From NCBI GenBank assembly GCA_014649555.1, contig BMTG01000027.1, positions 1 through 40,275 on the forward strand: a DNA stretch of 40,275 nt. Reading direction: 5' to 3'. The stretch is from Streptomyces globisporus. GTDB taxonomy: Bacteria; Actinomycetota; Actinomycetes; Streptomycetales; Streptomycetaceae. The notes beneath the pieces were generated by a model that made no database searches, was not told the origin of the DNA, and saw nothing but the letters and a program-made list of their open reading frames with translations. A program made the position numbers and the translations under genes. Positions 195 through 39,353 of the stretch are shown here, piece by piece (the stretch's first letter is position 1; every line of letters begins with the position of its first letter).

Positions 195-199
195 GGCTG

Positions 200-18290: not shown

Positions 18291-18338
18291 GGTTCGGAAG
18301 GACGGGCTCCCGGCGCCGGGGCCGACCGGCACCGGGAG
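18291..18338 (-). promoter_or_regulatory. Hairpin leader module before the first methyltransferase
   Basis: On the minus strand a 13-bp stem with one G-T (18307-18319 with 18326-18338) closes loop TCGGCC, then CCGAACC (18291-18297) lies before the ribosome-binding site. This is the only copy with C in the second loop position. The altered loop still pairs with CCGAACC with one bulged A. No own promoter of the shared type is seen, so it is intercistronic. Confidence 0.65.
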
Positions 18339-18358
18339 GCTCACATGCAGAACAGCGG

Positions 18359-19618
18359 TCAGAGGAGGCTGGGAAGCAGGCGCTCCCCCGCCCAGTGGGC
18401 GACGTTGACCGGGACCGCGTTGCCGACCTGGATGTACTGCTCCTCTACCGTCCCGGCTCTGCGGTAGGTGCTGGGGAACCGCTGCACCTGCGCGGTCTCC
18501 GAGGGGCGCAGCATGCGGATCGAGCAGTCGTCGACGGTCGAGGCGGTCCGCACGAGCGCGTGGTGAGGCCTGCACGCCACCGTGGTGAGTGGCCTGCGGA
18601 CGCTCCGGGGGTTCGCGGTGCGCCCCAGATGGACGATGACGAGCTCTCCCTCGGCGCGCTCACCACCAGGGCCGGCGAAACGACGGAGAGCGTCCGCGAT
18701 GCGGGCCCGGGTCGAAGACGCGTACGGGGTGAACACCCTGCAGTTGGGCTTGCCGTCGCCGACGCGCTGCTGCGGCAGGTCCAGGTCCAGGACGTCGAGG
18801 ACCGGATCGGTGACGGGCACGGTTCGCATGTGGCCGCAGGAGCGATTGGGGCACACGAAGTCGTACTGAACGCCGTACGATCCGACCTTCCGCCCGCGGG
18901 GGTTGCGCCAGTGCTGGATGCCGAGCACCGGCCCGCACTCCGGGCACACGCACTCCGGCCGCACCCGCAGGTCCGGGGGCGTGATGCCCTTGCGCACCAT
19001 GACGCCGATGAGCCGGTTGCGGTCCTGCCTGGCCCGAGGGTTCGAGCTGCCCGGCCCGCCGCCCAGGTGAGCCGCGTTCACCGACGCGACCTGGGGCACA
19101 TAGCCGAGCAGCTCCCAGGCCTTGAGCCACCAGTCGTACAGCGGCCAGGCGGTCGCGAACCGGGGGACGTTCTCCCACAGGACAGCGTCGTAGCGGTGGA
19201 CCTCCGCGGCGCGCAGAAGGTCGTAGGCCGTTGCCCGGGTCCGCTCCCAAGTCGCGGCCGGTGTGTAGTTCTCGGCGTCCTCGCCCTGGGGGAGCTCCAG
19301 CTGGGCACGCTCCATCTGGTTGCCGCCGGCCGGGCTGCCCTCTTTGCAGATGGGAGAGCCGAAGAGCACGCTGGTCCGGGGGAGGCGCCGCATGTCGTAG
19401 TTGTTGACGTCGGCGCAGTCGTGCGCGCAGTTGGGGAAGTTGAGCCGGTGACTGGCCACGGCGGTGGGCTCGTGGTTGAGGCCGAGGACCGGGTTGTACC
19501 CGGCCTCTTCGAAGCCGAGGGTGTCGCCGCCGATCCCGCAGAAGATGTGCGTGCTGGTCGGCCCGTCCTGCCCGGGGGGAGTTCTCCGAATGACGGACCG
19601 CGTGGTGAGTTGCTGCAC
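18359..19618 (-). CDS. Cytosine-C5 DNA methyltransferase (second of a tandem pair by position)
   Basis: 419 aa from GTG 19618, with AGGAG seven bases upstream. A longer frame to 19693 would translate the promoter and leader, so it is rejected. Motif I is HIFCGIGGDTLGFEEAGY, motif IV GSPICKEGSPAG with the catalytic Cys in a PICK context, motif VI WENVPRF, then RQDRNRL, and IQVGNAVPVNVAHWAGERL at the C-terminus. A paired-cysteine insert (CVCPECG ... CPNRSCGH) sits in the target-recognition region. It is clearly a paralogue of the protein at 16990-18270 but diverged across the recognition region, so the two may methylate different sites. Confidence 0.9.
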   Translation of the reverse strand: MQQLTTRSVIRRTPPGQDGPTSTHIFCGIGGDTLGFEEAGYNPVLGLNHEPTAVASHRLNFPNCAHDCADVNNYDMRRLPRTSVLFGSPICKEGSPAGGNQMERAQLELPQGEDAENYTPAATWERTRATAYDLLRAAEVHRYDAVLWENVPRFATAWPLYDWWLKAWELLGYVPQVASVNAAHLGGGPGSSNPRARQDRNRLIGVMVRKGITPPDLRVRPECVCPECGPVLGIQHWRNPRGRKVGSYGVQYDFVCPNRSCGHMRTVPVTDPVLDVLDLDLPQQRVGDGKPNCRVFTPYASSTRARIADALRRFAGPGGERAEGELVIVHLGRTANPRSVRRPLTTVACRPHHALVRTASTVDDCSIRMLRPSETAQVQRFPSTYRRAGTVEEQYIQVGNAVPVNVAHWAGERLLPSLL

Positions 19619-19637
19619 AGGGGCTCCTGGTGAGTGA

Positions 19638-19686
19638 GGTTCGGGTGTATCCGGGGCCAACCGGAATGACAAATAAAACTCTACCA
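19638..19686 (-). promoter_or_regulatory. Regulon promoter and leader of the second methyltransferase
   Basis: The minus strand has TGGTAGAGTTTTATTTGTCA (19667-19686), an extended -10 with TAGAGT. A hairpin follows (TCCGG and CCGGA around TTGGCC, 19650-19665), then CCGAACC (19638-19644) and AGGAG. Confidence 0.75.
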
Positions 19687-19708
19687 TTAACATCGCGTTC
19701 CGGGAAGG

Positions 19709-20206
19709 TCAGGCAGCCTCGCCCAGGCCCGAATCCCGGGGCCGAACGACACGACGAAGCGGCCAAGGACCGGACACCGCCGCCCGACCGGGACGAGCCC
19801 GGACGGCGGATGACACGGCGAGAGCTATGACTCCCCGCCCCGCCGCGACCCACAGCGCCTGGACGACGAACCACTCCGCGGCCGCCGACGACACATCGGA
19901 CGCCAGCACGGGGACACCCAGCTCCGCAGACTGCTCGAAGGGGATGAGCCACGGGAACGACGTGGTGAGCAAGGAGCTGTCGACCGACCCGCGGAACGTC
20001 ACCACGCCGACCAGGACCGGTCGACCGTCCTGCCCTGTGGGGCTCGGACCGAACAGCCCGACCGCGAGACGGAACGGCCCGCGCTGCTCCCCGGCAGGCA
20101 GGAACCTGCGGGCGCGGGCGGCAGAGATGACCCGTACCCGGTAACCGCGACGAGAGAAGTGGCGAGCCGAGCGGGACGGCGACGGGAACTGCATGGTGAG
20201 GGACAC
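19709..20206 (-). CDS. Mom-like / GNAT-fold putative nucleic-acid modification protein
   Basis: 165 aa from GTG 20206, behind GGAGG at 5 bases. The pattern FRLAVGLFGPSP, LVGVVTFRG, LTTSFPWLIPFEQSAELG, then AEWFVVQALWVAAGRGV resembles the actinophage Mom-family (adenine-modifying, GNAT-fold) proteins. Those typically continue with a D-P-x-P and a GHVGxIYQA segment. Here the Asn before E-S/A-WF and the C-terminal GHVG part are not evident (it ends RRVVRPRDSGLGEAA), so it may be diverged or shortened. It lies between two methyltransferase genes and a PP-loop gene, in line with a DNA-modification role. Family assignment is by remembered pattern only. Confidence 0.5.
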   Translation of the reverse strand: MSLTMQFPSPSRSARHFSRRGYRVRVISAARARRFLPAGEQRGPFRLAVGLFGPSPTGQDGRPVLVGVVTFRGSVDSSLLTTSFPWLIPFEQSAELGVPVLASDVSSAAAEWFVVQALWVAAGRGVIALAVSSAVRARPGRAAVSGPWPLRRVVRPRDSGLGEAA

Positions 20207-20370
20207 ACAAGCCTCCAGCTGGGAATGGAGCGGGAAGTTGACCGTGCTGAGAACGCGTAGGCCGGCGGTGCCGCCGCAATGGCGGGGGCGCTCGTAAGCA
20301 GTCACCGCACCGCCCGCTGCTGCCGCGCGGACGGGCGGCGAGCCCCCCGCCACATCGACCAGTTGCAACC

Positions 20371-21570
20371 TCAGACCGCGATGAGCGGCGCGACGGCGGC
20401 CGTCGGCGATGCCACGGCTGGCACACGGCCCGAGCGAGCCGGACTGGGCTGCTCGCGCAGCAGCGCGAGCCGATCCAGGTAGCGGCTGGCCGCGGACCTG
20501 CCGATGTACCCGGCCAGTGCGGTGCCTGCCGGCGGCCGGGCGGCGGGCCCGTGTTCGGCATCCAGCTCGGCCGCCCGCCGGATGATCTCCGCCATGGACA
20601 GACCCTTCTTGAAGTCGGCACGGACGGCGATCTCCTGCTCGGCGTACGCTGCCGCGAGCTCCGGAACCCGCCGTGCCCCGTTCACGAGGTCGCTGACGCA
20701 CCCGAGGACGCAGAAGACACAGCTCAACCGGCGATTCCCCCAGTCGTACGCCGGGTGATACGGCAGACCGGAGTCCGCGATCTCCCGCCAGACGAGAGCG
20801 TCGCTCCAGCCGTGAATCGGCCGCCATGTGGTGATGTGCCGCTTCCCGTTGCTCGCCGACCGGTTGACCTCCACCTCGGCGAGCTGGGCACGCTGGATGC
20901 TCTCGGCGGCACGCTGCCCGATGCACTCCAGGATCCGCACCGGCCGCCCCAGGTGCGCGAGCTCGGCCGTCAGCCGCGTATACAGCGTCCGGATCGGGCC
21001 CCGCTTCGCGTCCGGCGTACACCAGCGTGCCGAACTCGACGGCCACGCTGGCGCGACCTTCGCCGTTGCCGGGTCCTCGCCGCGCTCCAGAGCCTCTCGC
21101 TCCGCCTTCGCCTTGAGCTTGCCGTACCGGATGCCGACCCGTTCCAACAGATCAGCGCCCTGCGCCCGGACGACCTCGAATCTAGGCACTTCCAGCAGCC
21201 GCGCCTGCTCCTCGGCCAGCTCGCGCGTGCCCTCCCACTCGACCCGACCCAGGTCCGCATGGACCACCACAACCTTGTCGAGCATCCCCAGCGCGTCGGC
21301 GCGCCGGACGACGTACGACGCCATCGCCTGCGAGTCCTTCCCGCCTGAGGATGAGATGGCGACACGGTCGGCTTCCTCGATCAGCTCGTCGGAGACGGTC
21401 GTCGACGGCTTCATCGGAACCGATGGATGCACGGCACGCCGCCGGCGCCGCGGCTTCGGTACTGCGAGCTGGGGTGGCCGGGCAGCGTGCGCGGGCTCGG
21501 CCACGACATCGAACAGAGCGGTCTGGTCACAGCAGGTGCCGTTGCTCAGCGGCAGCGCAGGACTGTGCAC
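20371..21570 (-). CDS. PP-loop PAPS-reductase-like protein
   Basis: 399 aa from GTG 21570, behind AGGGAG. A disordered first ~50 residues is followed by an adenine-nucleotide hydrolase fold: the PP-loop SSSGGKDSQAM lies at ~73-83 and the next beta strand is VVVVHADLGRVEWEG. A central RWCTPDAKRGP segment and a cysteine cluster CVFCVLGC near residue 285 resemble the phage and plasmid branch of phosphoadenosine phosphosulfate reductase-like enzymes, not assimilatory CysH. Such proteins activate a substrate by adenylation and are found near DNA or tRNA modification genes. Met53 is an alternative start. Confidence 0.75.
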   Translation of the reverse strand: MHSPALPLSNGTCCDQTALFDVVAEPAHAARPPQLAVPKPRRRRRAVHPSVPMKPSTTVSDELIEEADRVAISSSGGKDSQAMASYVVRRADALGMLDKVVVVHADLGRVEWEGTRELAEEQARLLEVPRFEVVRAQGADLLERVGIRYGKLKAKAEREALERGEDPATAKVAPAWPSSSARWCTPDAKRGPIRTLYTRLTAELAHLGRPVRILECIGQRAAESIQRAQLAEVEVNRSASNGKRHITTWRPIHGWSDALVWREIADSGLPYHPAYDWGNRRLSCVFCVLGCVSDLVNGARRVPELAAAYAEQEIAVRADFKKGLSMAEIIRRAAELDAEHGPAARPPAGTALAGYIGRSAASRYLDRLALLREQPSPARSGRVPAVASPTAAVAPLIAV

Positions 21571-21642
21571 GGTGTTCTCCCTACGAGTGGTTGGTCTTTC
21601 GCGGCAGCCGTTCAGGCGGGCGGAGGACGCTCCGGACGCCGG

Positions 21643-22581
21643 TCAGGCGGTCAGGGTGAGGAGCTGCCGGTCCTCGGGCAGGGAGTTGAGCATCTGGTTA
21701 CGCCAGGCGCGGGCGTACCTGGGGCAACTGCTACAGCTCTGGTGCGTGCACCCGGGCATCGGCTCGCGGTACATGGCGTTCTTGGACCACGCCATGGAGT
21801 CGGAGGAGTAGAGCAGGTGGCAGGCCCCGTTGCGCAGCCCGGTGACCTTGAACCCGAAGCCGTGCAGCCGGATGCCCATCGACGCCAGGGTCTCGATGAT
21901 CCGGACGGCTTCCTTGGTGCCCTGGCGGCGGCAGACCGACCCGATCCCGACGACGGGTTCCAGGGTGAGGTCGACCCCGGCCTGGTCGTACAGGTCGACG
22001 CACCGCAGGTACTCGTCCAGGGTGAATCCCTGCAGGACGGGCATCCACGGCAGCTCGGCGTCCAGCGTCATCAGGTTCAGGAATGACGCCACGGTCCTGA
22101 GCTGGTGGTCCCACACGGTCAGCCCGGTCCGGGCGAGGACCTTTGCCTCCACCATCCAGTCCTGGATGGCGCAGGCGTCCATCAGCCCGATCTCGTCGTA
22201 GTACCGGCGGGCGGCCGCCGCGTACGCGTACGGGGTGACGGTCCACCGGCCCCGCTCCGAAAGCGTCGTGAACCCGCCGGAGTCGAGCATCCACGGTGTC
22301 ACCGCCCGTGGCAGGCTCCGACGGTCGTCGAGCCGGTGGTGGGAAACGCACAGCGGAATGCAGTCCTCGCCGAACTCCGGCCGTGCGAGCCACGACGGAT
22401 CGGGCGAACCGAGGTACGTCACGCGGTCGATGTCGGCGTACCACGTGCGCTCGACATGAACCGGCGCGGGACGCCTGGCCGCGGGCCTGCTCGTTGTCGG
22501 CGAGGGGAGCTCGAACAAGGTGTTCTGCGCTGACGGCACGGGGGTGTGGGCGGCGTGGTCGAGTTGCTGGGAGTTCCGCAT
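21643..22581 (-). CDS. TGT/DpdA-like (queuine transglycosylase-fold) protein
   Basis: 312 aa from ATG 22581, behind GAGGACGTC. The core contains MLDSGGFTTL (D100), matching the DSGGF active-site motif of tRNA-guanine transglycosylases and DpdA-type DNA enzymes. Further barrel-like motifs follow: AIQDWMVEAKVL, WMPVLQGFTLDEYLRCVDLY, EPVVGIGSVCRRQG, LHGFGFKVTGL and DSMAWSKNA. A C-terminal PGCTHQSCSSCPRYA suggests a metal site. It lies 61 bp downstream in the transcription sense from 22643 and 72 bp before the PP-loop gene. The family is common in actinophages and plasmids. A base-exchange role in DNA or RNA is inferred. Confidence 0.7.
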   Translation of the reverse strand: MRNSQQLDHAAHTPVPSAQNTLFELPSPTTSRPAARRPAPVHVERTWYADIDRVTYLGSPDPSWLARPEFGEDCIPLCVSHHRLDDRRSLPRAVTPWMLDSGGFTTLSERGRWTVTPYAYAAAARRYYDEIGLMDACAIQDWMVEAKVLARTGLTVWDHQLRTVASFLNLMTLDAELPWMPVLQGFTLDEYLRCVDLYDQAGVDLTLEPVVGIGSVCRRQGTKEAVRIIETLASMGIRLHGFGFKVTGLRNGACHLLYSSDSMAWSKNAMYREPMPGCTHQSCSSCPRYARAWRNQMLNSLPEDRQLLTLTA

Positions 22582-22642
22582 ACGACGTCCTCGATCGCTG
22601 TCGACAGGGAGAGGGGCGGCGGTCCGCAGGGCAGCGGGCGGG

Positions 22643-23716
22643 TCAGCGGTACCAGTGGCCGAACTGGTTGCGGCGGGTCACGTACATCTCCTCGTAGGGC
22701 TTGTCCGCCCATGGCCCCTGAGGGAGGGGGATGCGTACGAGGGCACCGAATCGGCAGGTCCGCGCGACCGTGCCCGGTGAGACGGTGGACAGCTGCACGG
22801 TGATGTCGTCGCCCGCCTTGAGCCCGAGGAAGTCCGGTGTCGGCACGCTCGCCGCGGTCTTCCACCAGGTCGCCCATGCCTCCGGCTCCCCCGAGGACCG
22901 CGGGAGCGGCCCGAAGACGTCACCGGCCCGGTGGCTGATGTGCTCCGCGGTGCCCTCCTTCGGGCTGAAGAGGTGCTCGCGGTCGTACGCGGCCGGGACG
23001 CTCGACACGGGCAGCTCTCCCAGCGGCAGCGGCAGCGGGGCGCGGCGCTGCGGGGCGCACGTACCCGGCCGGTGCGATGGCTGCTTCTCGTCGCCGTCGA
23101 TCAGGCGAACGGTGCGCGCGGCGTGGCGGATTTGGGCCGGGGTGACGCCGACGCGGTTGTACCTGTCGCCGACATACGCGCGGAGTGCCGCGCGCACCTT
23201 CACAACCAGCGCCTCTACGTGCGGCAGCCGCCCAGACCGGCGCAGCTCTGCCCGGCAGGCGCCGAACGCGTCGTCATCCGCCTCGTACGGCAGGCCGTAG
23301 GTGAGGAGGTGTACCAGAACCTCGCTGAGGTACTCGGCCTGACCGTCCGGTGCGACCCGGGAGTGCGCGACGGCAATGCGGTCAAGGGCCTCGGCCACCT
23401 CGGCAGGCGTGACCACGGGGGCTGGGGCCTCCTCGGCGGCCGGGGCCGGGTCGGCCTCGTGCTGGGGCTGCTCGGCGGGCTTGTCCTCGACGGCCGTCGC
23501 CGCCGTGGCCTCGTACCGGGAGGCGTACGGGTTCGAGGACCGGGGGGCCCGTACTGCCTTCTTGTGCTCGTCCTGCGAGCTGAACCCGGCGTGCACGAAC
23601 CCGTCGCCGAAGTCGGCCCACGTGATCCACAGGATCCGGCGGCCGCCCTTGGTGAACGTGACCGGCTTGCCGGTGGTCGGGTGCGTGGTGCTGTACGTGG
23701 TCTTGGTGCTGGCCAT
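22643..23716 (-). CDS. Conserved-type hypothetical protein
   Basis: 357 aa from ATG 23716, preceded by AGGAG. The N-terminus (KPVTFTKGGRRILWITWADFGDGFVHAGFSS) forms a beta-rich module. An Ala/Pro/Glu linker follows (~75-105), then a helical domain (VAEALDRIAVAHSRVAPDGQ, ~105-180), and finally a beta-rich end ~290-357 with DDITVQLSTVSPGTVARTC and YVTRRNQFGHW. No family was recognised. It begins a run of accessory genes without the shared leader. Confidence 0.6.
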   Translation of the reverse strand: MASTKTTYSTTHPTTGKPVTFTKGGRRILWITWADFGDGFVHAGFSSQDEHKKAVRAPRSSNPYASRYEATAATAVEDKPAEQPQHEADPAPAAEEAPAPVVTPAEVAEALDRIAVAHSRVAPDGQAEYLSEVLVHLLTYGLPYEADDDAFGACRAELRRSGRLPHVEALVVKVRAALRAYVGDRYNRVGVTPAQIRHAARTVRLIDGDEKQPSHRPGTCAPQRRAPLPLPLGELPVSSVPAAYDREHLFSPKEGTAEHISHRAGDVFGPLPRSSGEPEAWATWWKTAASVPTPDFLGLKAGDDITVQLSTVSPGTVARTCRFGALVRIPLPQGPWADKPYEEMYVTRRNQFGHWYR

Positions 23717-23756
23717 GATGCGATCTCCTGTCGTGGGTGCGGTACGCGGGGAGGAT

Positions 23757-23791
23757 GCCGGGGGCGCGGCCGTGTGCGCCGCACCCCCGGC
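23757..23791. terminator. Hairpin between two accessory genes
   Basis: GCCGGGGGCGCGGC (23757-23770) pairs with 23778-23791 with one mismatch, closing a 7-base loop. It follows the stop of the leftward gene at 23798. Confidence 0.5.
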
Positions 23792-23797
23792 GGGCGG

Positions 23798-24160
23798 TCA
23801 ACTGATGGCGGGCGCGGTGCGGATGCCATCGGACGGGGCGGAGGAAAACCATGCGGCGGCCGCCGCGCACGCCCCGGCTACCGCCTCCGCGAGGGGCAGT
23901 TCCGCACTGCCGTAGAACAGCTCTCCGAGGTCGTGAAAATCCTCACCGCCGTCGTGGGCGTACGCGCGGGCCCCGAGGATGGTGTGAGCCGGTGCAGGGG
24001 CAGCCATGTCCGCGAACGCGCCGATCAGGACGTGGACGCCCCGCATCGCGTCGGCGGCGGTGGTGGTCGCCGGGTGGACGATGACGCCGTCGTCGTCGGC
24101 ACGTCCGGCGAGTCCGTACCCGGGAAGTGCGGCAAGCACGGTTGCGGCAAGGGTGATCAC
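23798..24160 (-). CDS. Small hypothetical protein
   Basis: 120 aa from GTG 24160, behind AGAAGGG. The middle (GVHVLIGAFADMAAPAPAHT) and end (ELPLAEAVAGACAAAAAWFSS) are Ala-rich, with no membrane segment or known motif. It follows a strong terminator at 24255-24287 yet lacks the shared promoter, so its expression source is unclear. Confidence 0.5.
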   Translation of the reverse strand: MITLAATVLAALPGYGLAGRADDDGVIVHPATTTAADAMRGVHVLIGAFADMAAPAPAHTILGARAYAHDGGEDFHDLGELFYGSAELPLAEAVAGACAAAAAWFSSAPSDGIRTAPAIS

Positions 24161-24254
24161 GGGGTGCCCTTCTAGAGGTGCGGAGCCACGGGGGAGGGCG
24201 CCGTGGCGTGGCGCTGAGAGGCGGGGGGGCGTTCGCTTGATCCGCGGAAGTGCG

Positions 24255-24287
24255 GTCCCGGGCGGGCTCGTACCGCCCGCCCGGGAC
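24255..24287. terminator. Strong terminator hairpin
   Basis: GTCCCGGGCGGGC (24255-24267) pairs perfectly with 24275-24287 (13 bp) around a 7-base loop. It lies directly after the stop of the leftward gene at 24293. Confidence 0.65.
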
Positions 24288-24292
24288 GGGGA

Positions 24293-24793
24293 TCAGCTGG
24301 CTCGCTGATCCGGGACGCGGTAGAACTTCTGGTCGGCCCGGCGCGGGCCGCGCTCGTCCAGGGTGCGGATCAGGTCGCGGTCGACGCTCGACATCCGCCA
24401 CCACTCCCGCAGCACCCGGCCGTCAGCCGCGTAGTACGCGACGACCCGGGCCCAGGGGCTGCCGCCGGGAAGAGTGTGGGACACCTTGAACGCGAACCCG
24501 CTGTGCGTGAGCGTCACCGCGTCCTCCGGCCACCAGGCGCCCTCGTCGGCCGTGAAACTGGCGGGGCGCACGTGGTTGAGCAGGTTGAAGCTGCCTGAGG
24601 CGAGCAGGGTGTAACGCTCGCCCAGCGACTCGCAGTGGTCCTCGTCGTCGTGGTCCGCGGCCGAGTAGACCGTGTAGTGCGGGAAGAGCAGGAACCTGCC
24701 CTCGTGGTGCTCCGCGAGGCTGCCGTGATAGCGGACGGCCGTTCCAGCGACGGGCAGTTCAAGGGCGGTGGTGCGCGGCGAGGGGATGCTCAC
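24293..24793 (-). CDS. Hypothetical protein of the leader regulon
   Basis: 166 aa from GTG 24793, with AGGAGGACCCC as ribosome-binding site. A longer frame to 25141 runs through the promoter and leader and is rejected. The protein is beta-rich, with repeated segments VRYHGSLAEHHEGRFLLFPH, YTLLASGSFNLLNHVR and VTLTHSGFAFKVSHTLPGG, and a late WWRMSSVDRDLIRTLDERG. An acidic DHDDEDHCES stretch is notable. No family recognised. Confidence 0.65.
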   Translation of the reverse strand: MSIPSPRTTALELPVAGTAVRYHGSLAEHHEGRFLLFPHYTVYSAADHDDEDHCESLGERYTLLASGSFNLLNHVRPASFTADEGAWWPEDAVTLTHSGFAFKVSHTLPGGSPWARVVAYYAADGRVLREWWRMSSVDRDLIRTLDERGPRRADQKFYRVPDQRAS

Positions 24794-24820
24794 GGGGTCC
24801 TCCTGGTGCGTGGTGAGTGC

Positions 24821-24869
24821 GGTTCGGTGTCGATCGCGGCCAAACGATCTGACATATAGAACTCTACCA
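24821..24869 (-). promoter_or_regulatory. Regulon promoter and leader for the gene at 24293-24793
   Basis: The minus strand has TGGTAGAGTTCTATATGTCA (24850-24869). A hairpin GATCG ... CGATC (24832-24849) has TTTGGCC in its loop, then CCGAACC (24821-24827) and the ribosome-binding site. Confidence 0.72.
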
Positions 24870-32617: not shown

Positions 32618-32624
32618 AGACTGC

Positions 32625-33071
32625 TCAGTCGCCGAAGGTGCAGGTTCCGGCGCGTGATCCGCAGCCGCGGGAGGCGATAGTGGCGCCCTGGGTAATGAGG
32701 TCGTCGTGCTGGCCGTACTCGCGCCACCACCGGGCGCCAGAGTCCCAAGCGCTCTCGCCGACGATGAACCCCCGGAAGTCCCCGCCGTCATGAGTGCGGT
32801 ACAGACCGAGTCCGCTGGAGAGGTCCTGGCCCATATCGGGGCGAGCGGTCAGCACAGACTCGAAGACGGTTCGGACCGTGGTGGCGGTCCACGAGTCCGC
32901 GGGGTGAGGGAAGGACCGGAAGTATGCGCCCCGGGCGTTAGGGTCGATCCCCTCGCGCGATGCCGCGTTGAGCCGCCGGGCGATTTCGTCAGGAACGATC
33001 GCGTACAGGCGGCCGAAGTTGTCGGCTGTCACGGTTACATCGCTGGCGCTGAGCACGGGTGTACGAGCCAT
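32625..33071 (-). CDS. Hypothetical protein of the leader regulon
   Basis: 148 aa from ATG 33071, with AGGAG upstream. The first part has VTVTADNFGRLYAIVPDEIARRL, followed by FRSFPHPADSWTATTVRTVF and GLGLYRTHDGGDFRGFIVGE, with a Cys near the end (GCGSRAGTC). It appears soluble. Function unknown. It is followed by a strong terminator, so it is probably a single-gene unit. Confidence 0.65.
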   Translation of the reverse strand: MARTPVLSASDVTVTADNFGRLYAIVPDEIARRLNAASREGIDPNARGAYFRSFPHPADSWTATTVRTVFESVLTARPDMGQDLSSGLGLYRTHDGGDFRGFIVGESAWDSGARWWREYGQHDDLITQGATIASRGCGSRAGTCTFGD

Positions 33072-33103
33072 CGCGGAGCACTCCTTGAGTGTGTTGGGTC
33101 TGC

Positions 33104-33154
33104 GGTTCGGTGCCGTGAGGGGGCCAACCCTCGCTGACAGTTAGAATTCTACCA
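33104..33154 (-). promoter_or_regulatory. Regulon promoter and leader for the gene at 32625-33071
   Basis: The minus strand has TGGTAGAATTCTAACTGTCA (33135-33154), stem GAGGG/CCCTC (33117-33132) with loop TTGGCC, then CCGAACC (33104-33110). Confidence 0.78.
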
Positions 33155-33164
33155 CGGTAGAGCC

Positions 33165-33365
33165 CTACAGGCTCCACAAAGACACCTGTCGATACGACAG
33201 CGGCAATTCCGTCTGCCCGGGAATGGGCTCATCTCCAGCGTCCGGAAGCTGCCCACGCTTGCGGCGGGTGGCCCTCCGCTGAGGCGCTGACGCCCCCGCC
33301 TCGGAGTGACTGGCGGCGTCCTGCTCATCAGTTGCCGGAGAGCGCTGTGCTTCGGGGTTGGACAT
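33165..33365 (-). CDS. Small hydrophilic hypothetical protein
   Basis: 66 aa from ATG 33365, with GGAG four bases upstream. It is very charged, with an Arg/Lys block (RRATRRKRG) and an ending GQTELPLSYRQVSLWSL. The GQTELPL-type ending is common in small actinobacterial element proteins. It lies 31 bp past the metalloprotease gene, so it may be its last operon member. TTGGCC occurs in its leader without a clear stem. Confidence 0.5.
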   Translation of the reverse strand: MSNPEAQRSPATDEQDAASHSEAGASAPQRRATRRKRGQLPDAGDEPIPGQTELPLSYRQVSLWSL

Positions 33366-33396
33366 CCTTCTCCATCAGTCGGCGAAACGGGGCCAA

Positions 33397-34185
33397 TCAA
33401 GAGGGGCGTACATCGCCCATCCACACGGAACCGCCTTCCCGGTCCAAGCGCTGCTGCTCCTCCCGGGCCCCCGGCAACGCCCGCTCGGCCATGCGCCAGA
33501 ACTCCCGGCCGTGCGGCGCTCCGGCCGGCCGTGCGGCATGAGCCAGCTCATGCGCGAGGACGTACCGCGCGAGCGGCGCAGGGAGCTGCAACGTCTGCCA
33601 CGCGAGCGTTACCCGGTGCCTGGCTGGCTCGTACTTCCCCCACCGCTTCCGCCCGATGTCCGCCGCGCGCAGCACTGGCAAGGGCGTTCCCGGGCGGACG
33701 ATCCGCGACCACAGGGCCGGGGCCTCCCGCTGCGCCCACTCGGTCCCCTCGGCGCAGTACCAGCGAATGAGGGGGCGCGCGCCCTCGCGGGCCAAGAGGG
33801 CCCGGCCCGCGTGCATCCACCACCCGTGACCATCCTGGACGCGCACCACCGGGCCATGCCCGTCGAGGAGGCGCAGCCGCGCCGGGCGGCCCAGCCACGT
33901 GAAGCCCTGCCCGTTCACGAGGTCGACGACTTGGAAGTCGGGGGCGAACTCCCGGGCTCGGTTCACGTTCGACGCGATCCGATCCCGCATCCGGCCCAGC
34001 GCGGTCAGGGTGTCCTCGGGTGAGGCGGTCACCGGAACCGCGATCGACAGGACTTCCCCGCCTGGCTCCACGGTCACGCCGAACGACCGGCGGCGGCTGA
34101 CGCGCACCCGCAGAGTGAACCCGTCGAACAGCCCGGATGCCGCGATGGCCGCGTGGTATCGCTCTGATTCGGCGGTGTTACTCAT
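33397..34185 (-). CDS. YgjP/SprT-like zinc metalloprotease
   Basis: 262 aa from ATG 34185, overlapping the upstream stop (ATGA), with GAGGAGG upstream. The C-terminal third holds HELAH as the HExxH zinc site, followed by PHGREFWRMAERALPG with a third His, and WGKYEPARHRVTLAWQTLQL. This is the YgjP/SprT layout. The N-terminal part (TLRVRVSRRRSFGVTVEPGG) resembles the strand repeats before the active site in YgjP-like proteins. The frame further upstream reads unlike protein and is rejected. Its target is unknown. Confidence 0.8.
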   Translation of the reverse strand: MSNTAESERYHAAIAASGLFDGFTLRVRVSRRRSFGVTVEPGGEVLSIAVPVTASPEDTLTALGRMRDRIASNVNRAREFAPDFQVVDLVNGQGFTWLGRPARLRLLDGHGPVVRVQDGHGWWMHAGRALLAREGARPLIRWYCAEGTEWAQREAPALWSRIVRPGTPLPVLRAADIGRKRWGKYEPARHRVTLAWQTLQLPAPLARYVLAHELAHAARPAGAPHGREFWRMAERALPGAREEQQRLDREGGSVWMGDVRPS

Positions 34186-34727
34186 CGTCCGGCCTCCTCG
34201 TTCAGGTCGACGGTCATGAGGGTTTCGCCGCCGTGGGGAGCTACGTCCAGGACCGGCGGCCACGTATCCCGCTCGGCGTAGGACCGGAGCTGCTGGTACG
34301 CCTGTTGGGCGGCCTCGCGGGGGCTGTCCGCCTCGAACTCCGCTTTCCATGTGACAGTCCACTCGCGGGCCGGGCCCGGTGGCACGGGGCGGCAGCGCGG
34401 CACTACCAAAATCCACGCGTCCAGGTCGACGACGTAACCGTCTCCCTCCGCCTCGCAGAGCTGCACACGCCCGCCCTCTGCGGGGATCGGGTCGGCAGTG
34501 AACGCGTATCCCCAGTAACCGCGCAGCCGCTCCAGCGGCCCCGACCGGTCGGCGTAGCGGGCAGAGTCCAGGGTGCCGACCCATCGGTCTCCGGGGCGCA
34601 CGTCCCGGGCGCGGAGAGGTCGCACGGCGGCCTGGTCCGGCGAGCCGTACAGGCTGTGCCAAGGGGGCAGCGCGGGCACGGTCACACGGGACACCGTGGG
34701 GTCGAGGTCGAAGAACACATGGGGCAT
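34182..34727 (-). CDS. Hypothetical protein upstream of the metalloprotease
   Basis: 181 aa from ATG 34727, with GGAGG eight bases upstream. It has VFFDLDPTVSRVTVPAL, a central RGYWGYAFTADPIPAEGG, then VVDLDAWILVVPR and a DSPREAAQQAYQQLRSYAER helix followed by VLDVAPHGGETLMTVDL. It overlaps the protease gene by 4 bp, so the two are co-translated. Function unknown. Confidence 0.65.
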   Translation of the reverse strand: MPHVFFDLDPTVSRVTVPALPPWHSLYGSPDQAAVRPLRARDVRPGDRWVGTLDSARYADRSGPLERLRGYWGYAFTADPIPAEGGRVQLCEAEGDGYVVDLDAWILVVPRCRPVPPGPAREWTVTWKAEFEADSPREAAQQAYQQLRSYAERDTWPPVLDVAPHGGETLMTVDLNEEAGR

Positions 34728-34750
34728 AGGTCGGGCCTCCAGGGTCGACG

Positions 34751-34780
34751 GGCCGGGGCGCAGCAGGGCGCGCCCCGGCC
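34751..34780. repeat. Hairpin in the leader of the gene at 34182-34727
   Basis: GGCCGGGGCGC (34751-34761) pairs with GCGCCCCGGCC (34770-34780). It has no TTGGCC loop, so it is not the shared leader. Confidence 0.5.
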
Positions 34781-34791
34781 GGCGGGTGGCG

Positions 34792-34938
34792 TCAGTCACT
34801 GAGGGTGTCCGGGCGGCGGGCGGCGGCCGTCTCGCTGACCTCGCGGACGGTGGCCATGACCGTCTCGGCTTGCTCCGGGGTGAGGCGCTCCGCCCCTTCC
34901 CGGGGGCCTTCCCCCCGGCCGTAGCGCCGGACGGTCAG
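34792..34938 (-). pseudogene. Broken small ORF, 48 codons without a start
   Basis: The minus-strand frame reads LTVRRYGRGEGPREGAERL, then TPEQAETVMATVREVSE and a Pro-Thr end before TGA at 34792-34794. It looks like protein but is preceded in frame by TAG with no ATG/GTG/TTG and no ribosome-binding site. A nine-base C run lies just upstream (34960-34968), a typical slippage site. It is either the tail of a frameshifted gene or a coincidental frame. Confidence 0.35.
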
Positions 34939-34973
34939 CTACGACTCGGATACGTGAGCGGGGGGGGGCCGGA

Positions 34974-34996
34974 CCCGGGTGCCTTGGGCACCCGGG
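34974..34996. terminator. Terminator hairpin after the gene at 35006
   Basis: CCCGGGTGCC (34974-34983) pairs with GGCACCCGGG (34987-34996), loop TTG. Confidence 0.55.
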
Positions 34997-35005
34997 CCGG
35001 GGTGC

Positions 35006-35443
35006 TCAGGCCTCGTTGGCCTGCCGGATCGTGATCACGGGCTCGCCCTCGTCGCCGGGTCCAATGGAGCAATGGACCTGCACCAGCCGGGCCTTGACGG
35101 CACGACCGCCGCGGGGGACGCGGTAGAGCTCGGCAAGAAACTCGGTGGCGAATCCCCGGCGGGCCCGGGCCGCCGTCATGAACAGGACGTCCCACAACCG
35201 GCCCGTCTCGTCCTGCGGAACCTGCCTGGCGGTGTCCTCGTCACTCCATGCCACGCAGTCGTCCCACGCGGCGCGACTGATCGCGACGGGGGCGCGCCAA
35301 CCGGCCTCGGACGCGATGCCCGGCTCCACGGCGACGAGTGCGCCTTCTGCGATCGCCTGGGCGCGGGACGGGGCCGACCGCATGGCGTCCTCGCTGACCG
35401 ACAGGTCCCTGTCGATACGGCTCAAGATCCCGGGGTCCGTCAC
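35006..35443 (-). CDS. Hypothetical protein of the leader regulon
   Basis: 145 aa from GTG 35443, with AAAGGAGAG upstream; the longer frame to 35485 overlaps the leader. It has SRAQAIAEGALVAVEPGIAS, then RAAWDDCVAWSDEDTARQV, FATEFLAELYRVPRGGRAV and a final HCSIGPGDEGEPVITIRQ. It appears soluble and acidic at the end. Function unknown. Confidence 0.65.
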   Translation of the reverse strand: MTDPGILSRIDRDLSVSEDAMRSAPSRAQAIAEGALVAVEPGIASEAGWRAPVAISRAAWDDCVAWSDEDTARQVPQDETGRLWDVLFMTAARARRGFATEFLAELYRVPRGGRAVKARLVQVHCSIGPGDEGEPVITIRQANEA

Positions 35444-35459
35444 GTGCTCTCCTTTGTGC

Positions 35460-35520
35460 GGTTCGGACGTCGCGGGAGGGGCCAACCTCCCGCGACTTGC
35501 TGACAGTTAAAATTCTACCA
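35460..35520 (-). promoter_or_regulatory. Regulon promoter and leader for the gene at 35006-35443
   Basis: The minus strand has TGGTAGAATTTTAACTGTCA (35501-35520), a 10-bp stem GTCGCGGGAG/CTCCCGCGAC (35469-35496) enclosing GTTGGCCC, then CCGAACC (35460-35466). Confidence 0.78.
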
Positions 35521-35524
35521 TGAA

Positions 35525-36187
35525 TCATGCAGGTTTCTGGCTAAGATGCACCACGTAACGCCCGTCATCCAGAGCACCGCTCCTCCCGGACTCCCGACCG
35601 GCCCTCACCAGCACCTGCTCCGCCCTCGCCTTCCGGTGCACCCTGAACACCCAGTCACGAATCCGCTCCGCGCTCTCCAGAGCCGCGACGGTCCCGGCGT
35701 GAGGCACCCCCCGCGCCCGGTCGGCGAGGCGGCACACCTCCGCCGAAACCTCCGAGTGCGCGTGCTCAATAGCTGAGTACGCACCCCGACACCGCGTAAT
35801 CCGACTCCAAGCGCAGCCGCCTGCCTCCTGCTCCAGCACGGCGAGCGCGACCCTCGGCCACCGCTCCGCACCCTGCGCAGGCTCGAAATGTGCATCAACC
35901 CAGCACGCGACCCGATGGTCGTGCAAAACATCGAACGGATGCGGCGTCTGGGGGGAGGGAACGGGCGCACCCGAATGCGCCCGAAGCTGCTCCGCGAATC
36001 CGGCAACGGTCGGCGGCTCCTGCGTGCGTTCCAGCCGCACCAGATGAGCGACGATCCGGGGCAGCTGCCAGGCAGGCGAACCGTACGGGGCGCTGGGCAT
36101 CGCCCAGCAACCACGCTCCGTACCAGTGCTGTCGGAGACCGACACCCGCAGCACGAACAGAGACGGGGAGACGACAGACAGACGCAT
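35525..36187 (-). CDS. Hypothetical protein with a complex leader
   Basis: 220 aa from ATG 36187, with GGAGCTGTCTCGT upstream. It has a beta-rich start (LSVVSPSLFVLRVSVSDS), WQLPRIVAHLVRLERTQ, HDHRVACWVDAHFEP, an IEHAHSEVSAEVCRLADRAR helix and a Lys/Arg-rich end. The stop comes 5 bp before the promoter of the next gene (35520), so transcripts are close. Its ~190-base leader holds the TTGGCC/CCGAACC module in a special form. Function unknown. Confidence 0.6.
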   Translation of the reverse strand: MRLSVVSPSLFVLRVSVSDSTGTERGCWAMPSAPYGSPAWQLPRIVAHLVRLERTQEPPTVAGFAEQLRAHSGAPVPSPQTPHPFDVLHDHRVACWVDAHFEPAQGAERWPRVALAVLEQEAGGCAWSRITRCRGAYSAIEHAHSEVSAEVCRLADRARGVPHAGTVAALESAERIRDWVFRVHRKARAEQVLVRAGRESGRSGALDDGRYVVHLSQKPA

Positions 36188-36219
36188 ACGAGACAGCTCC
36201 AGATAGAGAGGGCCGGGCG

Positions 36220-36249
36220 GTGCCCGCTCCGGCCGGCCGGAGCGGGCAC
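36220..36249. repeat. Perfect 30-bp palindrome in the leader
   Basis: GTGCCCGCTCCGGCC (36220-36234) is the exact reverse complement of 36235-36249. It could act as an attenuator or terminator between the leader module and the start at 36187. Confidence 0.6.
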
Positions 36250-36276
36250 CCAGCGGCCGGCCGGGCGCGGTACCCT

Positions 36277-36304
36277 GAACGAGTCACGACTCACGGACTC
36301 GTTC
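36277..36304. repeat. Inverted repeat in the leader
   Basis: GAACGAGTC (36277-36285) pairs with GACTCGTTC (36296-36304), loop of 10. Confidence 0.5.
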
Positions 36305-36314
36305 GGTGTGTTGT

Positions 36315-36382
36315 GGTTCGGAAAGGTCCGGCGGTTGGGCCAACCGCGCAAGCGGTCCGCTTCGGCGGACAACCGCCGGACC
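36315..36382 (-). promoter_or_regulatory. Leader module with two exclusive folds
   Basis: On the minus strand GGTCCGGCGGTT (36371-36382) pairs with AACCGCCGGACC (36325-36336), 12 bp perfect. Inside, GTCCGC-CGAA-GCGGAC forms a stable tetraloop hairpin. GCGGTT-GGCCC-AACCGC (36331-36347) uses the same AACCGC strand, so it excludes the outer stem. GGTTGGCC and downstream CCGAACC (36315-36321) are conserved. No promoter of the shared type is seen. Confidence 0.55.
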
Positions 36383-36410
36383 ACCCCCTACAACCGGCAG
36401 CGGCTGGGGC

Positions 36411-36599
36411 CTAGGCCTCCCAGATATAGCCATGAGGCTTCTCGTACGGGCGGCAGTGATCCGACATGCGGCCCAGTGCGTTGTAGGTGCAGTCGGGGTG
36501 ACACTTCTCCTCCGGCTCGTACTGGTAGCAGCCGCAATCGCACAGACACGCTCGGCATTCGCAGTGGGAACCGTGGCGGGGAAGCGAACGAGCAGACAA
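36411..36599 (-). CDS. Small cysteine-rich protein
   Basis: 62 aa from TTG 36599, with GGAGGGTCC eight bases upstream, an uncommon start supported by that site. A dense cluster CECRACLCDCGCYQYEPEEKC then HPDC (residues ~13-38) gives eight cysteines with His, well placed for metal clusters or disulfides. It lies between ParB and the complex leader. No family was recognised. A small metal-binding regulator is possible. Confidence 0.55.
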   Translation of the reverse strand: MSARSLPRHGSHCECRACLCDCGCYQYEPEEKCHPDCTYNALGRMSDHCRPYEKPHGYIWEA

Positions 36600-36664
36600 G
36601 AGGACCCTCCAACAGCGGTGACGGGCGGCAGTAGCTAGGCGGGCGGGCTCACCGCGCGCGGAGC

Positions 36665-36691
36665 GGCGCAGGGCCGTTCAGGCCCTGCGCC
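36665..36691. terminator. Terminator hairpin after parB
   Basis: GGCGCAGGGCC (36665-36675) pairs with GGCCCTGCGCC (36681-36691), 11 bp, loop GTTCA. It follows the stop at 36701. Confidence 0.65.
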
Positions 36692-36700
36692 ACTTGCGTT

Positions 36701-38383
36701 CTAGCGGCGGGTGTCGGCCTCGGGCTCGGCCTGGGCGTTGGGCTCGGGCTCGGCGTCGGCCTCGGGCTCGGCGTCGGGCTCGGGCTCGGCGTCGGGCTCG
36801 GCGTCGGCCTGGGCGTCGGCGTCGGCCTCGGCGTCGGCCTCGGCGTCGGCCTGGGCGTCGGCCTGGGCGTCGGCGTCGGCCTCGGCGTCGGCCTCGGCGT
36901 CGGCGTCGGCCTCGGCGTCGGCGTCGGCGTCCGGCTTCTGGCGCTTGGCGAACGCCTCGATCACGCCGCGCTCGTGATCAGAGAGGGTGTAGCCCTCGGC
37001 GGCCAGGAACTCAAGCCACTGGATGTCGTCGGCCGTCGGGTTCGCCCATGCCTTGTCGCCCATGGCGGACTCGTACGCGGCCGCAACCTGCGCCAGCAAC
37101 AACTGGGGACGGCGTGCCTTGCCCGTCCGCTGAATCGCCTTCGCGAAAGGCTCACTGCCCTTCTCCGGCGTGGCTCCGGCGAACGCGCCCACCATGGCCG
37201 CAGCCTTGTCACCGGTCTTGTTCAGGAACCGGCGGTAAACGTCTGAGCCGTTCACCACCGTAGAAAGGATCAGCAACCATCCCCCGTCCGACACCGACTT
37301 GCCCTTGCACAGCTCCGCAATGAACGAATGACGGACTTCACGCGCTGCCCTTGCAGCGCGGTTCTGCTCGATCACGGTCTTCCGGTACTTGCGCTCCTCC
37401 TCCTTGGCGCGCGTCTCCTCCTCGACGGTCGGCCCGTCACTGGCGCGGTGCCCGTACTCCTGCGGGCGGGTGCAGAAGTAGATGGGGTTCATTTCGTCGT
37501 CCAGCCATGCCGCGTGCCCGGCGCACGCCGCGCTGTGAGCCTCCGGCGTGAGGGCGCGCCCGGTCGCCGTGGTGAGCTCCGACAACGCCCGTGCGTCATC
37601 GTGCCAGCGGGGGCGGGGCAGAACCTTGACGCCCGCCTCTTCGAGGGCTTGCGTTGCGGCCGCGACCTTCCGGGCCTCGTCCTGACGCTGGCGCAGTGCA
37701 GCCAACGCGTGCTTCCAGTGGCCGTTGCCCTTGCGTGCTTCCTGATCCTGCCTCTTGGCGCGGGCCAGCGTCTCCGCTGCGCCGTTGACCTCTTCGACTT
37801 CCTGAAGGTCGGCAAGCTCGATGAGATCGAACCCGTACCGGTCCCCGTCCTGCATGCCCTCCGGGGACAGTTCGGCCGCCCTCTTGGCGGCCTTCAACTG
37901 CTCGCGCTTGATTCCCAGAATGGCGGCCGCGCGCCGACGCTCCGTCTCCGACGTCCCGATCAGTTCGAGCTGCGCGGCCCCTTTCACCTGGTCGTGGTGC
38001 GTCATCCGAACACGCTGCGTGTTCTCGACCAGAGAGAGAAGCAACGCCTCATGATCGGCGTCGGTGAGGCTGGCGCGAACGAACGCAGGGATGGGACGCC
38101 AGGGCTTGCCCTTCGTGGTGGCCTTCTTCTTGGCGGCGAGCGCGGCAAGCCAACGCCGTTGACCCTTGAACACGCCGTAGCGGCCGTCGTCCAGCGGCCG
38201 CACACTGATGGGCTCCTGGACGCCGATGCGCTCGACGGACGCCAAAAGCCCGGCGTCCGGCTTGACGTTCTGGGTCCGCGCGTTTCGCTCGTCCAGTACC
38301 ACCATCTCAGGGTCAAGCTCGACCAGTTCGCCCAAGTCGCTCAGAACGCCGAGCGGCTCTACCGGAGTGTTCTTCGTGTTCAC
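36701..38383 (-). CDS. ParB-family protein with acidic repeat tail
   Basis: 560 aa from GTG 38383, with GAAGGGAACC upstream; the frame to 38521 is rejected because it runs through the leader. Residues ~25-190 form the ParB core: [29 protein letters not shown] (GQRRW in place of GERRxR), [10 protein letters not shown], then an HTH region with [21 protein letters not shown] long middle contains [20 protein letters not shown]. The last ~75 residues are repeats of AD/AE, with some EP. ParB CTPases bind parS and load partition complexes. No ParA gene is in the window. Confidence 0.8.
36714..36931. repeat. Hexanucleotide tandem repeat coding the acidic ParB tail
   Basis: Nearly continuous GCGTCG/GCCTCG/GGCTCG units over ~218 bp. 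They are read on the minus strand as Ala-Asp/Ala-Glu, with Glu-Pro near the end. Such arrays often change copy number by slippage. Confidence 0.8.
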
Positions 38384-38406
38384 GATGGTTCCCTTCAGTG
38401 ATGTGT

Positions 38407-38449
38407 GATCCGGAATGCCGGGGGTGCCGGGGCCAACCGGCACCCCCGG
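38407..38449 (-). promoter_or_regulatory. Hairpin leader of parB
   Basis: A perfect 13-bp stem (38418-38430 with 38437-38449) closes loop TTGGCC, followed by CCGGATC (38407-38413), a degenerate CCGAACC that can still pair with the loop using G-U pairs. It has no own shared promoter and lies between the gene at 38457 and parB. Confidence 0.65.
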
Positions 38450-38456
38450 GAAAGGC

Positions 38457-38774
38457 TTACGCTGCGCAGTAGCACTCAGAGGGCGGAATTTCGCCGCACT
38501 GGAAATGTGCGCAGAATCCAACTGCCCGGAGAAACGGCGTGCCTCGCGGGACTCGCGGATTCACTGCAACATAGGCGACGCTCACGCCATCGCACATGAG
38601 TTCCACGTAAGCGCGTCGGTGGTACTGGTGGAAAGCGCGGATTGCTGATGAGAGTGCGGGGCTAGGATCGCCTACCCACTCACCCACTACCCTCTCTTCG
38701 CCACCGGGAAGAATTGCCACGACACCGTGATAGCTGCGCGCATTCACTTCTACGCCCGGAAACGGATAAGGCAA
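38457..38774 (-). CDS. Small hypothetical protein upstream of ParB
   Basis: 105 aa from TTG 38774, with GAGGAGAG five bases upstream. It has VEVNARSYHGVVAILPGGEE, then RVVGEWVGDPSPALSSAIRAF, FHQYHRRAYVELMCDGVSV and a C-terminal CAHFQCGEIPPSECYCAA with four Cys. It may be read with ParB from the promoter near 39334. Function unknown. Confidence 0.6.
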   Translation of the reverse strand: MPYPFPGVEVNARSYHGVVAILPGGEERVVGEWVGDPSPALSSAIRAFHQYHRRAYVELMCDGVSVAYVAVNPRVPRGTPFLRAVGFCAHFQCGEIPPSECYCAA

Positions 38775-38795
38775 GATCTCTCCTCAACTCGCTAC

Positions 38796-38828
38796 GTTGG
38801 TGGGCGGTGCACTTCACCGCCCACCAAC
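38796..38828. terminator. Strong hairpin between two leader-regulon genes
   Basis: GTTGGTGGGCGGTG (38796-38809) pairs perfectly with 38815-38828 (14 bp), loop CACTT. It follows the stop at 38838. Confidence 0.55.
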
Positions 38829-38837
38829 ACCGAACGC

Positions 38838-39266
38838 TTAGGCAGTGAGCGCGAATGCCTGCCCGTAGCGCGTGGCCGAGCTACCGCTGTGGCGCGATGC
38901 GCACTCCTCGGCGGTCAGGGCGGCCAGATCGGCGCTCCAGTCCCCCTTTTCCCACATGCGGGCTACGGTCCGGGTGCGGCGGCCCGGCGCGGGGGAATGA
39001 AGCTCGACGGTGACCGAGCTGCCGAACATCTGCATTCCGGCCCCCAGCACGGTGCTGAACGCGTCTCGCTGTGCAGGCTCCATGACGACGATCCCGCACT
39101 CGTCAGTGACGTTGATGAGCACGCGGCCCGGCACTACCTGCCCGGTGATCGCCTCGACGCGGACGGAGAGCAGATGAAGCCCCGGGCCAAGCGCGGGAAG
39201 GAGGCGGTCAAGAATCTGCCCCCCTGCGGCCATTGCAGAATTGCGGGATGCGGTAAGAGTCGACAT
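38838..39266 (-). CDS. Hypothetical protein, first gene after the telomere-proximal promoter
   Basis: 142 aa from ATG 39266, with GAGGGAG upstream. It has NSAMAAGGQILDRLLPALGP, a beta region (LHLLSVRVEAITGQVVPG, RVLINVTDECGIVVME), AQRDAFSTVLGAGMQMFG, then ARMWEKGDWSADLAALTAEE. It is soluble and function is unknown. It is the outermost complete gene seen before the chromosome or plasmid end. Confidence 0.65.
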   Translation of the reverse strand: MSTLTASRNSAMAAGGQILDRLLPALGPGLHLLSVRVEAITGQVVPGRVLINVTDECGIVVMEPAQRDAFSTVLGAGMQMFGSSVTVELHSPAPGRRTRTVARMWEKGDWSADLAALTAEECASRHSGSSATRYGQAFALTA

Positions 39267-39293
39267 GGCGTTCTCCCTCGGTGCGGTTACTGC

Positions 39294-39353
39294 GGTTCGG
39301 CGTCGGAAGGGGGGCCAACCCCTCCCGACCTGCTGACAAGTAAAACTCTACCA
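39294..39353 (-). promoter_or_regulatory. Regulon promoter and leader for the gene at 38838-39266
   Basis: The minus strand has TGGTAGAGTTTTACTTGTCA (39334-39353), an 11-bp stem with one G-T (39302-39312 with 39319-39329) closing TTGGCC, then CCGAACC (39294-39300). Confidence 0.78.

Follow-up and report, generated by a model that had tools for sequence, protein, structure and literature searches.

A repeated hairpin-and-tag leader precedes leading-region-type genes at the end of a Streptomyces globisporus plasmid and may mark them as one regulon

A repeated 5' leader was analyzed on the minus strand of contig BMTG01000027.1 of Streptomyces globisporus, the whole of which (40,275 nucleotides, contig C27 within the 8.2-Mb genome) is referred to here as the window. 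Each leader consists of a hairpin with a conserved hexaloop, followed by a short tag, or tail, ahead of a start codon. The leaders form a real family, apparently undescribed and more general than had been noticed in an earlier annotation made from the DNA letters (the sequence-only reading). The interpretation we favor, with a probability of roughly 0.53, is that of a repeated cis-acting leader RNA that marks establishment genes as one regulon and would be read by a trans factor matched to the plasmid.

The sequence-only reading had listed ten minus-strand leaders with hairpin and tail; nine of them stand, while the tenth, before 36187, is atypical (Table 1). The nine carry an uninterrupted stem of 5-13 bp (G-U pairs allowed), a hexaloop and a tail 1-9 nt past the stem, all on the minus strand. 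The loop is UUGGCC, replaced by UCGGCC in the methyltransferase copy at 18325, and the tail is CCGAACC, replaced by CCGAATC at 26474 and CCGGATC at 38413, the variant loop and both variant tails having been correctly pointed out in that reading. In 9/9 copies the tail ends 16-32 nt short of the named start codon. When the nine leaders were folded as RNA, every minimum-energy structure contained the hexaloop hairpin, and in the three with short inner stems a UGU(C) foot is paired directly before the tail; the copy at 24821, formerly described as a weaker fit, is a good one once a U-G pair and the UGUC/GACA foot are counted. A chance origin was rejected on the basis of 60 first-order Markov shuffles of the window, which contained on average 0.07 hairpin-plus-tail elements (maximum 1) versus nine observed. 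In the atypical copy the only pairing that closes the loop at 36343 is between outer 13-nt arms, with a 26-nt insert inside them; the tail lies 127 nt from the ATG, no start codon having been named at the distance seen elsewhere. A long palindrome (GGTGCCCGCTCC, GGCCGGCC, GGAGCGGGCACC) is found at 36215-36260 on the minus strand, shortly 5' of the 36187 gene; the other leaders differ in this respect.

That stems differ between copies while their pairing persists, as had been claimed, was borne out both by covariation and by exchanging arms between copies. Twenty distinct copies, taken from the window and from three related plasmids, were aligned: 8/9 pairs were changed on both sides, and the covariation score was 0.764, versus 0.227 in shuffles (0/500 as high) and at most 0.204 in slid controls. 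The rows of this alignment (A2/R1) came from a scan requiring a stem of at least 4 bp, and the inner four pairs are therefore ascertained. The test was repeated with the stem requirement dropped, picking sites by loop and tail alone: the window then yielded 10 sites with loop core and tail, nine of them with a stem of at least 4 bp, and the mean stem was 8.5 bp versus 2.7 bp with arms swapped between copies (5.3 in the best of 200 swaps). The comparison was extended to plasmid regions hand-picked from database matches (20 in all, L001-L003, L021-L028 and L109-L117, which do not constitute a prevalence sample). Sites picked in the same way had a stem of at least 4 bp in 5/6 cases in L002, 7/8 in L003, 26/29 in pZL1, 26/27 in L026, 14/14 in L110 and 12/12 in L114, and in 0/13 in plasmid W03, where a 6-nt loop was assumed and the real loop has 7 nt. 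The mean stem exceeded the swapped-arm mean in the window and in each of L002, L003, pZL1, L026, L110 and L114, the observed mean in L002 being equalled by the best of 200 swaps. Among the nine window copies, identity is 0.96 in the loop and 0.91 in the tail, and 0.30, near chance, in the 5' arm. Copying or homogenisation is thus disfavoured in the window, because the stems would have stayed alike too.

Directly 5' of the hairpin, seven of the nine window leaders (class A) carry a promoter-like block, TGGTAGARTTYTANNTGTC, which was absent from the sequence-only account. Class B copies (18325 and 38436 in the window, and many in L021, L026 and L027) have no such block and are sited in intergenic gaps. 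The -10-like hexamer lies exactly 7 nt from the first G of the hairpin in 72/73 class A copies from nine plasmids, as counted with hexamer patterns written after the leaders had been inspected. These patterns were ill-suited to L024 and L113, which were re-measured together with L111, L023, L028 and L116; in the last of these the spacing is 6 nt (10/10 by first G). Given the fixed spacing between box and first G, class A mRNA should begin at or near the hairpin. In three blocks (26521, 29623 and 33151) the -10-like box is covered by a perfect palindrome, TAGAATTCTA, which may be a separate operator within the promoter block.

These data also bear on an element acting at the DNA level, i.e. a repressor operator or a single-stranded-DNA promoter or initiation site of the Frpo/ssi type on the transferred strand. 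Such promoters are described for other plasmids in parts of PMC11541004, and the single orientation, the leading-region-type genes and the palindromic TAGAATTCTA of three promoter blocks would suit such an element. However, the hairpin begins some 7 nt past the -10-like box, none of the seven window copies has a TTGN in its -35 window, class B copies lack the block altogether, and the position of the element is held relative to the start codon. Part of the -10 does fall within a local 3-5-bp stem in some single-strand DNA folds, but none of the seven folds has a long stem holding both -10 and -35, and their z-scores range from -1.95 to +0.47. We regard a DNA-level element as improbable.

The architecture was recognized by eye, from the leaders, in at least three copies in 15 of the 20 regions; L109 has one copy and L112, L115 and L117 none. 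A descriptor search of the unannotated region L022 gave no element. Within many plasmids the loop-and-tail code is nearly uniform, and it diverges between plasmids. UUGGCC with CCGAACC is found in the window and in L001-L003, and L021 combines the UUGGCC loop with the tails CCGAACC, CCAGACC, CCAAACC or CCACGCC. The version of L026, L027 (pZL1), L110 and L114 is (A/G/U)UGGC(A/G) with CUCGAAACC, that of L024 and L111 is GUGGCA with ACCGAAAACC-like tails, that of L025 is AUGGCAG with CCCGAACCUUCAAC, and that of L023 is CGGCAA with CCAACC- or CCGACC-like tails. L028 is more variable, with GGCA-containing loops and CGAAUC-like tails; L113 has three copies of CCGACUA with CGCCGAACCCAUC, and Nocardiopsis exhalans (L116) has ACCGACAC with CACCGCCCAC. 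In the class A stems of L026 and L027 (GUUGG-GA-GGGG / CCCC-GA-CCGAC), tandem G-A pairs between two short helices are conceivable by eye. The distance to the annotated start is 17-30 nt for 26/28 tails in L026 and 18-29 nt for 13/15 in L027. With heuristic starts, the tails of W03 end 12-18 nt 5' of the start, and the distance in the Nocardiopsis plasmid, measured from the loop, is 29-47 nt.

Counted by strand over whole plasmids, the tag CTCGAAACC of the CUCGAAACC version occurs 30/0 times in pZL1 and 38/1 in the S. xanthii plasmid, GAGACCGACACC 17/0 in the Nocardiopsis plasmid, and CCCGAACCTTCAAC 13/0 in a further one. A small antisense RNA pairing with the loop and tag of all leaders would account for a plasmid-specific code, but exact complements of the tag or loop searched are missing from the other strand of pZL1 (30/0), W03 (13/0) and W10 (17/0). 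W02 has one (38/1), and the search was for exact matches, blind to shorter or imperfect ones or to an RNA from elsewhere. This explanation seems to us very unlikely.

Somewhat less remote, though still unlikely, is a generic 5' stabiliser or translation-enhancing stand-by structure served by the host machinery alone, the versions of which would differ by drift and shared descent. The predicted opening of the transcripts with a hairpin, the recurrence of UGGC loops and CGAACC-like tails across versions and the fairly similar arms of L025-L027 (identity 0.53-0.54) could all be explained in this way. Stability, however, requires a stem and not an identical loop and tag, whereas in the window loop and tag are near-fixed and the stems have diverged, and the fixed letters differ between plasmids within one genus. 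Since letters fixed within a plasmid change between plasmids of one genus, a co-evolving recognition factor can be inferred.

In the sequence-only reading, the leader was proposed to be perhaps a pseudoknot in which loop and tail pair. A pairing of GGUUGG with CCGAACC-type tails, with one bulge, can indeed be drawn, and in L021, which is of the window's own type, six pairs with one bulge are kept in 16/18 copies although the tail varies. This retention is a weak constraint because U pairs with either purine. If the pairing were real, each plasmid's loop should suit its own tail best, and the opposite was found: over seven plasmid versions, cognate pairs averaged -4.3 kcal/mol versus -5.7 for non-cognate pairs, and 4984 of 5040 loop-tail reassignments were as good as or better than the cognate one (loops and tails were hand-listed, with L021, L028 and L111 left out). 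Geometry also suggests that, with a stem of 11-13 bp and a linker of 1-4 nt (39318, 38436, 35485 and 26497), the loop would be out of the tail's reach unless the lower stem opens. The pairing expected of an H-type pseudoknot leader is therefore not maintained between versions, L021 being partial counter-evidence, and we consider a loop-tail switch highly improbable. The broader claim of a cis-regulatory RNA fares better, as the leader is structured, its stems covary, its placement is that of an RNA-level element, and neither an Rfam match nor, in the literature searched, a description was found.

Most likely, then, this is a leader acting at the RNA level, on translation or on the mRNA, and read by a plasmid-specific trans factor. 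In such a scheme the leader RNA would label the leading-region genes of a conjugative plasmid as members of a single regulon. Class A transcripts would start from the first G of the hairpin, so that the mRNA opens with a stem-loop of ~10-13 bp, and in class B the same hairpin is placed between genes, just 5' of the next start. The conserved hexaloop (NYGGCN in most versions) is followed by the tag, and this ends ~15-30 nt ahead of the start codon, where the ribosome footprint has its upstream edge. A plasmid-matched trans factor, most likely a plasmid-encoded RNA-binding protein, would recognise loop and tag and set the translation or the mRNA survival of these genes jointly. A likely use would be low expression of the genes in an established host, lifted upon entry of the DNA into a naive cell. 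We hold more tentatively, and at less than even odds, a stronger version of this idea, in which loop and tag would form a private RNA address code on up to ~40 genes of actinobacterial conjugative plasmids, co-evolving with a plasmid-encoded RNA-binding regulator that reads it, and the genes would make up an orthogonal post-transcriptional regulon, switched on when a new host is entered.

Several observations weigh against this interpretation. No trans factor was found: BLASTP families over five plasmids had only DUF3560 common to all, and across 15 plasmids DUF3560 is present in 14, being absent from the element-bearing W15 (the plasmid of L003), and ParB_N in 13, so that none of the plasmid proteins compared is a universal candidate reader. 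The overlap of loop and tail consensus between versions (UGGC, CGAACC) would also fit a host factor. Strong stem divergence is seen only in the window type, the 5' arm identity being 0.53-0.54 in L025-L027; shared descent could thus explain part of the uniformity of copies, and the argument for a trans factor is weaker because stems diverge less outside that type. (Eight of the nine window copies entered the analysis that gave these arm identities and the L021 pairing count, and all nine entered the identities of 0.96, 0.91 and 0.30.) Loops and tails are less uniform in L021, L023, L024, L028, L111 and L113. The spacing from box to first G is 6 nt in L024 (7/9 copies), varies from 6 to 10 nt in L111, L023 and L028, and is 7-8 nt in the three real leaders of L113, which was counted as variable. 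Folding z-scores of the nine single leaders are modest (-2.9 to +1.4). Finally, oriT, the origin of transfer, was not located on the plasmid, and the leading-region label rests on gene content.

How plasmid leading-region genes, with establishment and anti-defence functions, are switched on jointly is unsettled outside the single-strand promoters of F-type plasmids. If the interpretation is right, sequence alone would suffice to delimit such a regulon by means of the element, including its unannotated genes, and the element could point to new establishment or anti-defence genes; with several divergent loop and tag versions at hand, swapping could allow a cognate reader to be identified.

The pattern TGGCACC...CTCGAAACC formed an array in 1/392 Streptomyces genomes (32 copies, one strand), with 1-2 matches in each of 31 other matching genomes and at most one per genome in a reversed control. 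A strict pattern of the window version had four matches in its own genome and 1-2 in each of 17 other matching genomes, among which G244 holds a real relative. With the R1 model, 7 of 295 Streptomyces genomes had a match at E <= 0.01, and only the genome of the window (8) and G244 (3) had more than one. The eight comprised 8/9 window copies, the copy at 24843 not being reported, and there was also one weak intragenic match on another contig. Among 80 GTDB loci of DUF3560, the leader of the DUF3560 gene itself bears the element in four by eye (L033, L041, L062 and L084), and a simple loop-in-stem count summed over the 80 loci was not above two permuted controls. A phage origin was disfavoured: two patterns searched in viral_contigs gave one match per contig in 80/80 of the matches listed, from at least 120 stretches, and in 10/10. 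A look-alike was seen in the murC leader of L016 and L017 (~1510, plus strand), where a hairpin with loop TTGGCC/TCGGCC is followed by CCGAACCGCAG before the start codon; as a single copy, it may be due to chance or be a host element.

Regarding the plasmid itself, positions 18000-40275 match the linear S. globisporus plasmid NZ_CP108666.1 with 96.8% identity over 94% of the query, and the final 400 bases match ends of other Streptomyces plasmid records. The window constitutes the telomere-side end of a linear Streptomyces plasmid and carries genes of leading-region type. Transfer-type genes (AAA_10, TcpC-like, Replic_Relax) occupy positions 1-17000. The minus-strand array at 16990-39266 encodes two cytosine methylases and PAPS-reductase-like, DpdA-like, ChlI-domain, DUF3560, YgjP-like, DUF6573 and ParB-like proteins, along with proteins having no Pfam hit; in related plasmids ArdC-like and single-stranded-DNA-binding protein (SSB) genes and a MobF relaxase adjoin the array. 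It was called a leading region because of this gene content: the parts consulted of PMC11541004 place methylases, SSBs and anti-defence genes in the leading region, and these together with parts of PMC8708921 count methylase, ArdC-like and SSB genes among leading-region or establishment genes. The PAPS-reductase-like and DpdA-like genes (20501-23033) share 78% DNA identity with Streptomyces phage Gilgamesh and, going by family name, would relate to DNA modification of the 7-deazaguanine type. In NZ_CP061283.1 the tag array is found at both ends of the record (1-19000 and 97000-125386) on one strand, and this record, labelled linear, may therefore be circular.

Table 1. Leaders, promoter-like blocks and other features located in the window
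Feature	Coordinates	Strand	Description	Gene or remark
Leader, class A	39294..39329	minus	11-bp hairpin, loop TTGGCC 39318-39313, tail CCGAACC 39300-39294	
Leader, class B	38407..38449	minus	13-bp hairpin, TTGGCC, tail CCGGATC	ParB-like gene; without promoter block
Atypical copy	36315..36382	minus	TTGGCC at 36343, hairpin with 26-nt insert, tail CCGAACC 36321-36315	
Leader, class A	35460..35496	minus	11-bp hairpin, TTGGCC, CCGAACC	DUF6573 gene
Leader, class A	33104..33139	minus	inner 5-bp stem and UGUC/GGCA foot, TTGGCC, CCGAACC	
Leader, class A	29570..29604	minus	10-bp hairpin, TTGGCC, CCGAACC	DUF3560 gene
Leader, class A	26468..26510	minus	13-bp hairpin, TTGGCC, CCGAATC	
Leader, class A	24821..24854	minus	6-bp stem and UGUC/GACA foot, TTGGCC, CCGAACC	
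Leader, class A	19638..19671	minus	5-bp stem and UGU/ACA foot, TTGGCC, CCGAACC	DNA cytosine methylase gene
Leader, class B	18291..18338	minus	13-bp hairpin, loop TCGGCC, tail CCGAACC	DNA cytosine methylase gene
Promoter-like block	39335..39353	minus	TGGTAGAGTTTTACTTGTC	before 39266 leader
Promoter-like block	35502..35520	minus	TGGTAGAATTTTAACTGTC	
Promoter-like block	33136..33154	minus	TGGTAGAATTCTAACTGTC	
Promoter-like block	29608..29626	minus	TGGTAGAATTCTAAATGTC	
Promoter-like block	26506..26524	minus	TGGTAGAATTCTAACTGTC	
Promoter-like block	24851..24869	minus	TGGTAGAGTTCTATATGTC	
Promoter-like block	19668..19686	minus	TGGTAGAGTTTTATTTGTC	
Gene array served by leaders	16990..39266	minus	leading region by gene content	oriT not located
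Plasmid telomere	39876..40275	no strand	matches at or near record ends of Streptomyces plasmids in most rows listed	

With respect to known systems, the covariance models of Rfam 15 gave no match at gathering score in the window or in L021 and L024-L027, and at E up to 5 over 18200-40275 there was one weak plus-strand match (33952-33986, E 3.2) and none at the leaders. Among the open-access papers brought up by literature searches, as judged by titles and the beginnings of abstracts (most subscription papers being outside their reach), none describes a leader of this kind on a Streptomyces plasmid. ANTAR-responsive RNAs carry a pair of hexaloop hairpins and work through antitermination; the leaders described here share with them a hexaloop hairpin in the leader, but there is one hairpin per leader. 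Frpo/ssi elements, according to parts of PMC11541004, likewise serve leading-region genes, in one orientation, and form hairpins, but the fold of Frpo contains the -35 and -10, whereas in these leaders the -10-like box precedes the hairpin. The STAXI motif (RF01728) is likewise structured and is found close to genes for DNA handling, SSB and antirestriction genes among them; according to PMC2864571 it consists of two or more copies of a pseudoknot unit, in which UUCG loops are frequent, and occurs in Enterobacteriales. A single hexaloop hairpin with its tag stands before each start codon here, so that no tandem pseudoknot units are present, and the Rfam searches gave no STAXI match. A further parallel may be drawn with EGeRS1 and EGeRS2, the establishment gene regulatory sequences of pLS20-family Bacillus plasmids, for which parts of PMC8708921 describe repeated upstream sequences marking several operons for establishment within a single plasmid, the two versions belonging to different clades, and a mechanism given as unknown for EGeRS1. 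The leaders share the placing of one regulatory sequence before many genes of one plasmid (nine in the window, 30 tags in pZL1 and 38 in the S. xanthii plasmid), and are set apart by length and layout: EGeRS1, in the same source, spans ~400-750 bp with multiple inverted repeats, one per operon, whereas here a hairpin and tag of ~35-50 nt are found per gene, also between the genes of a run.

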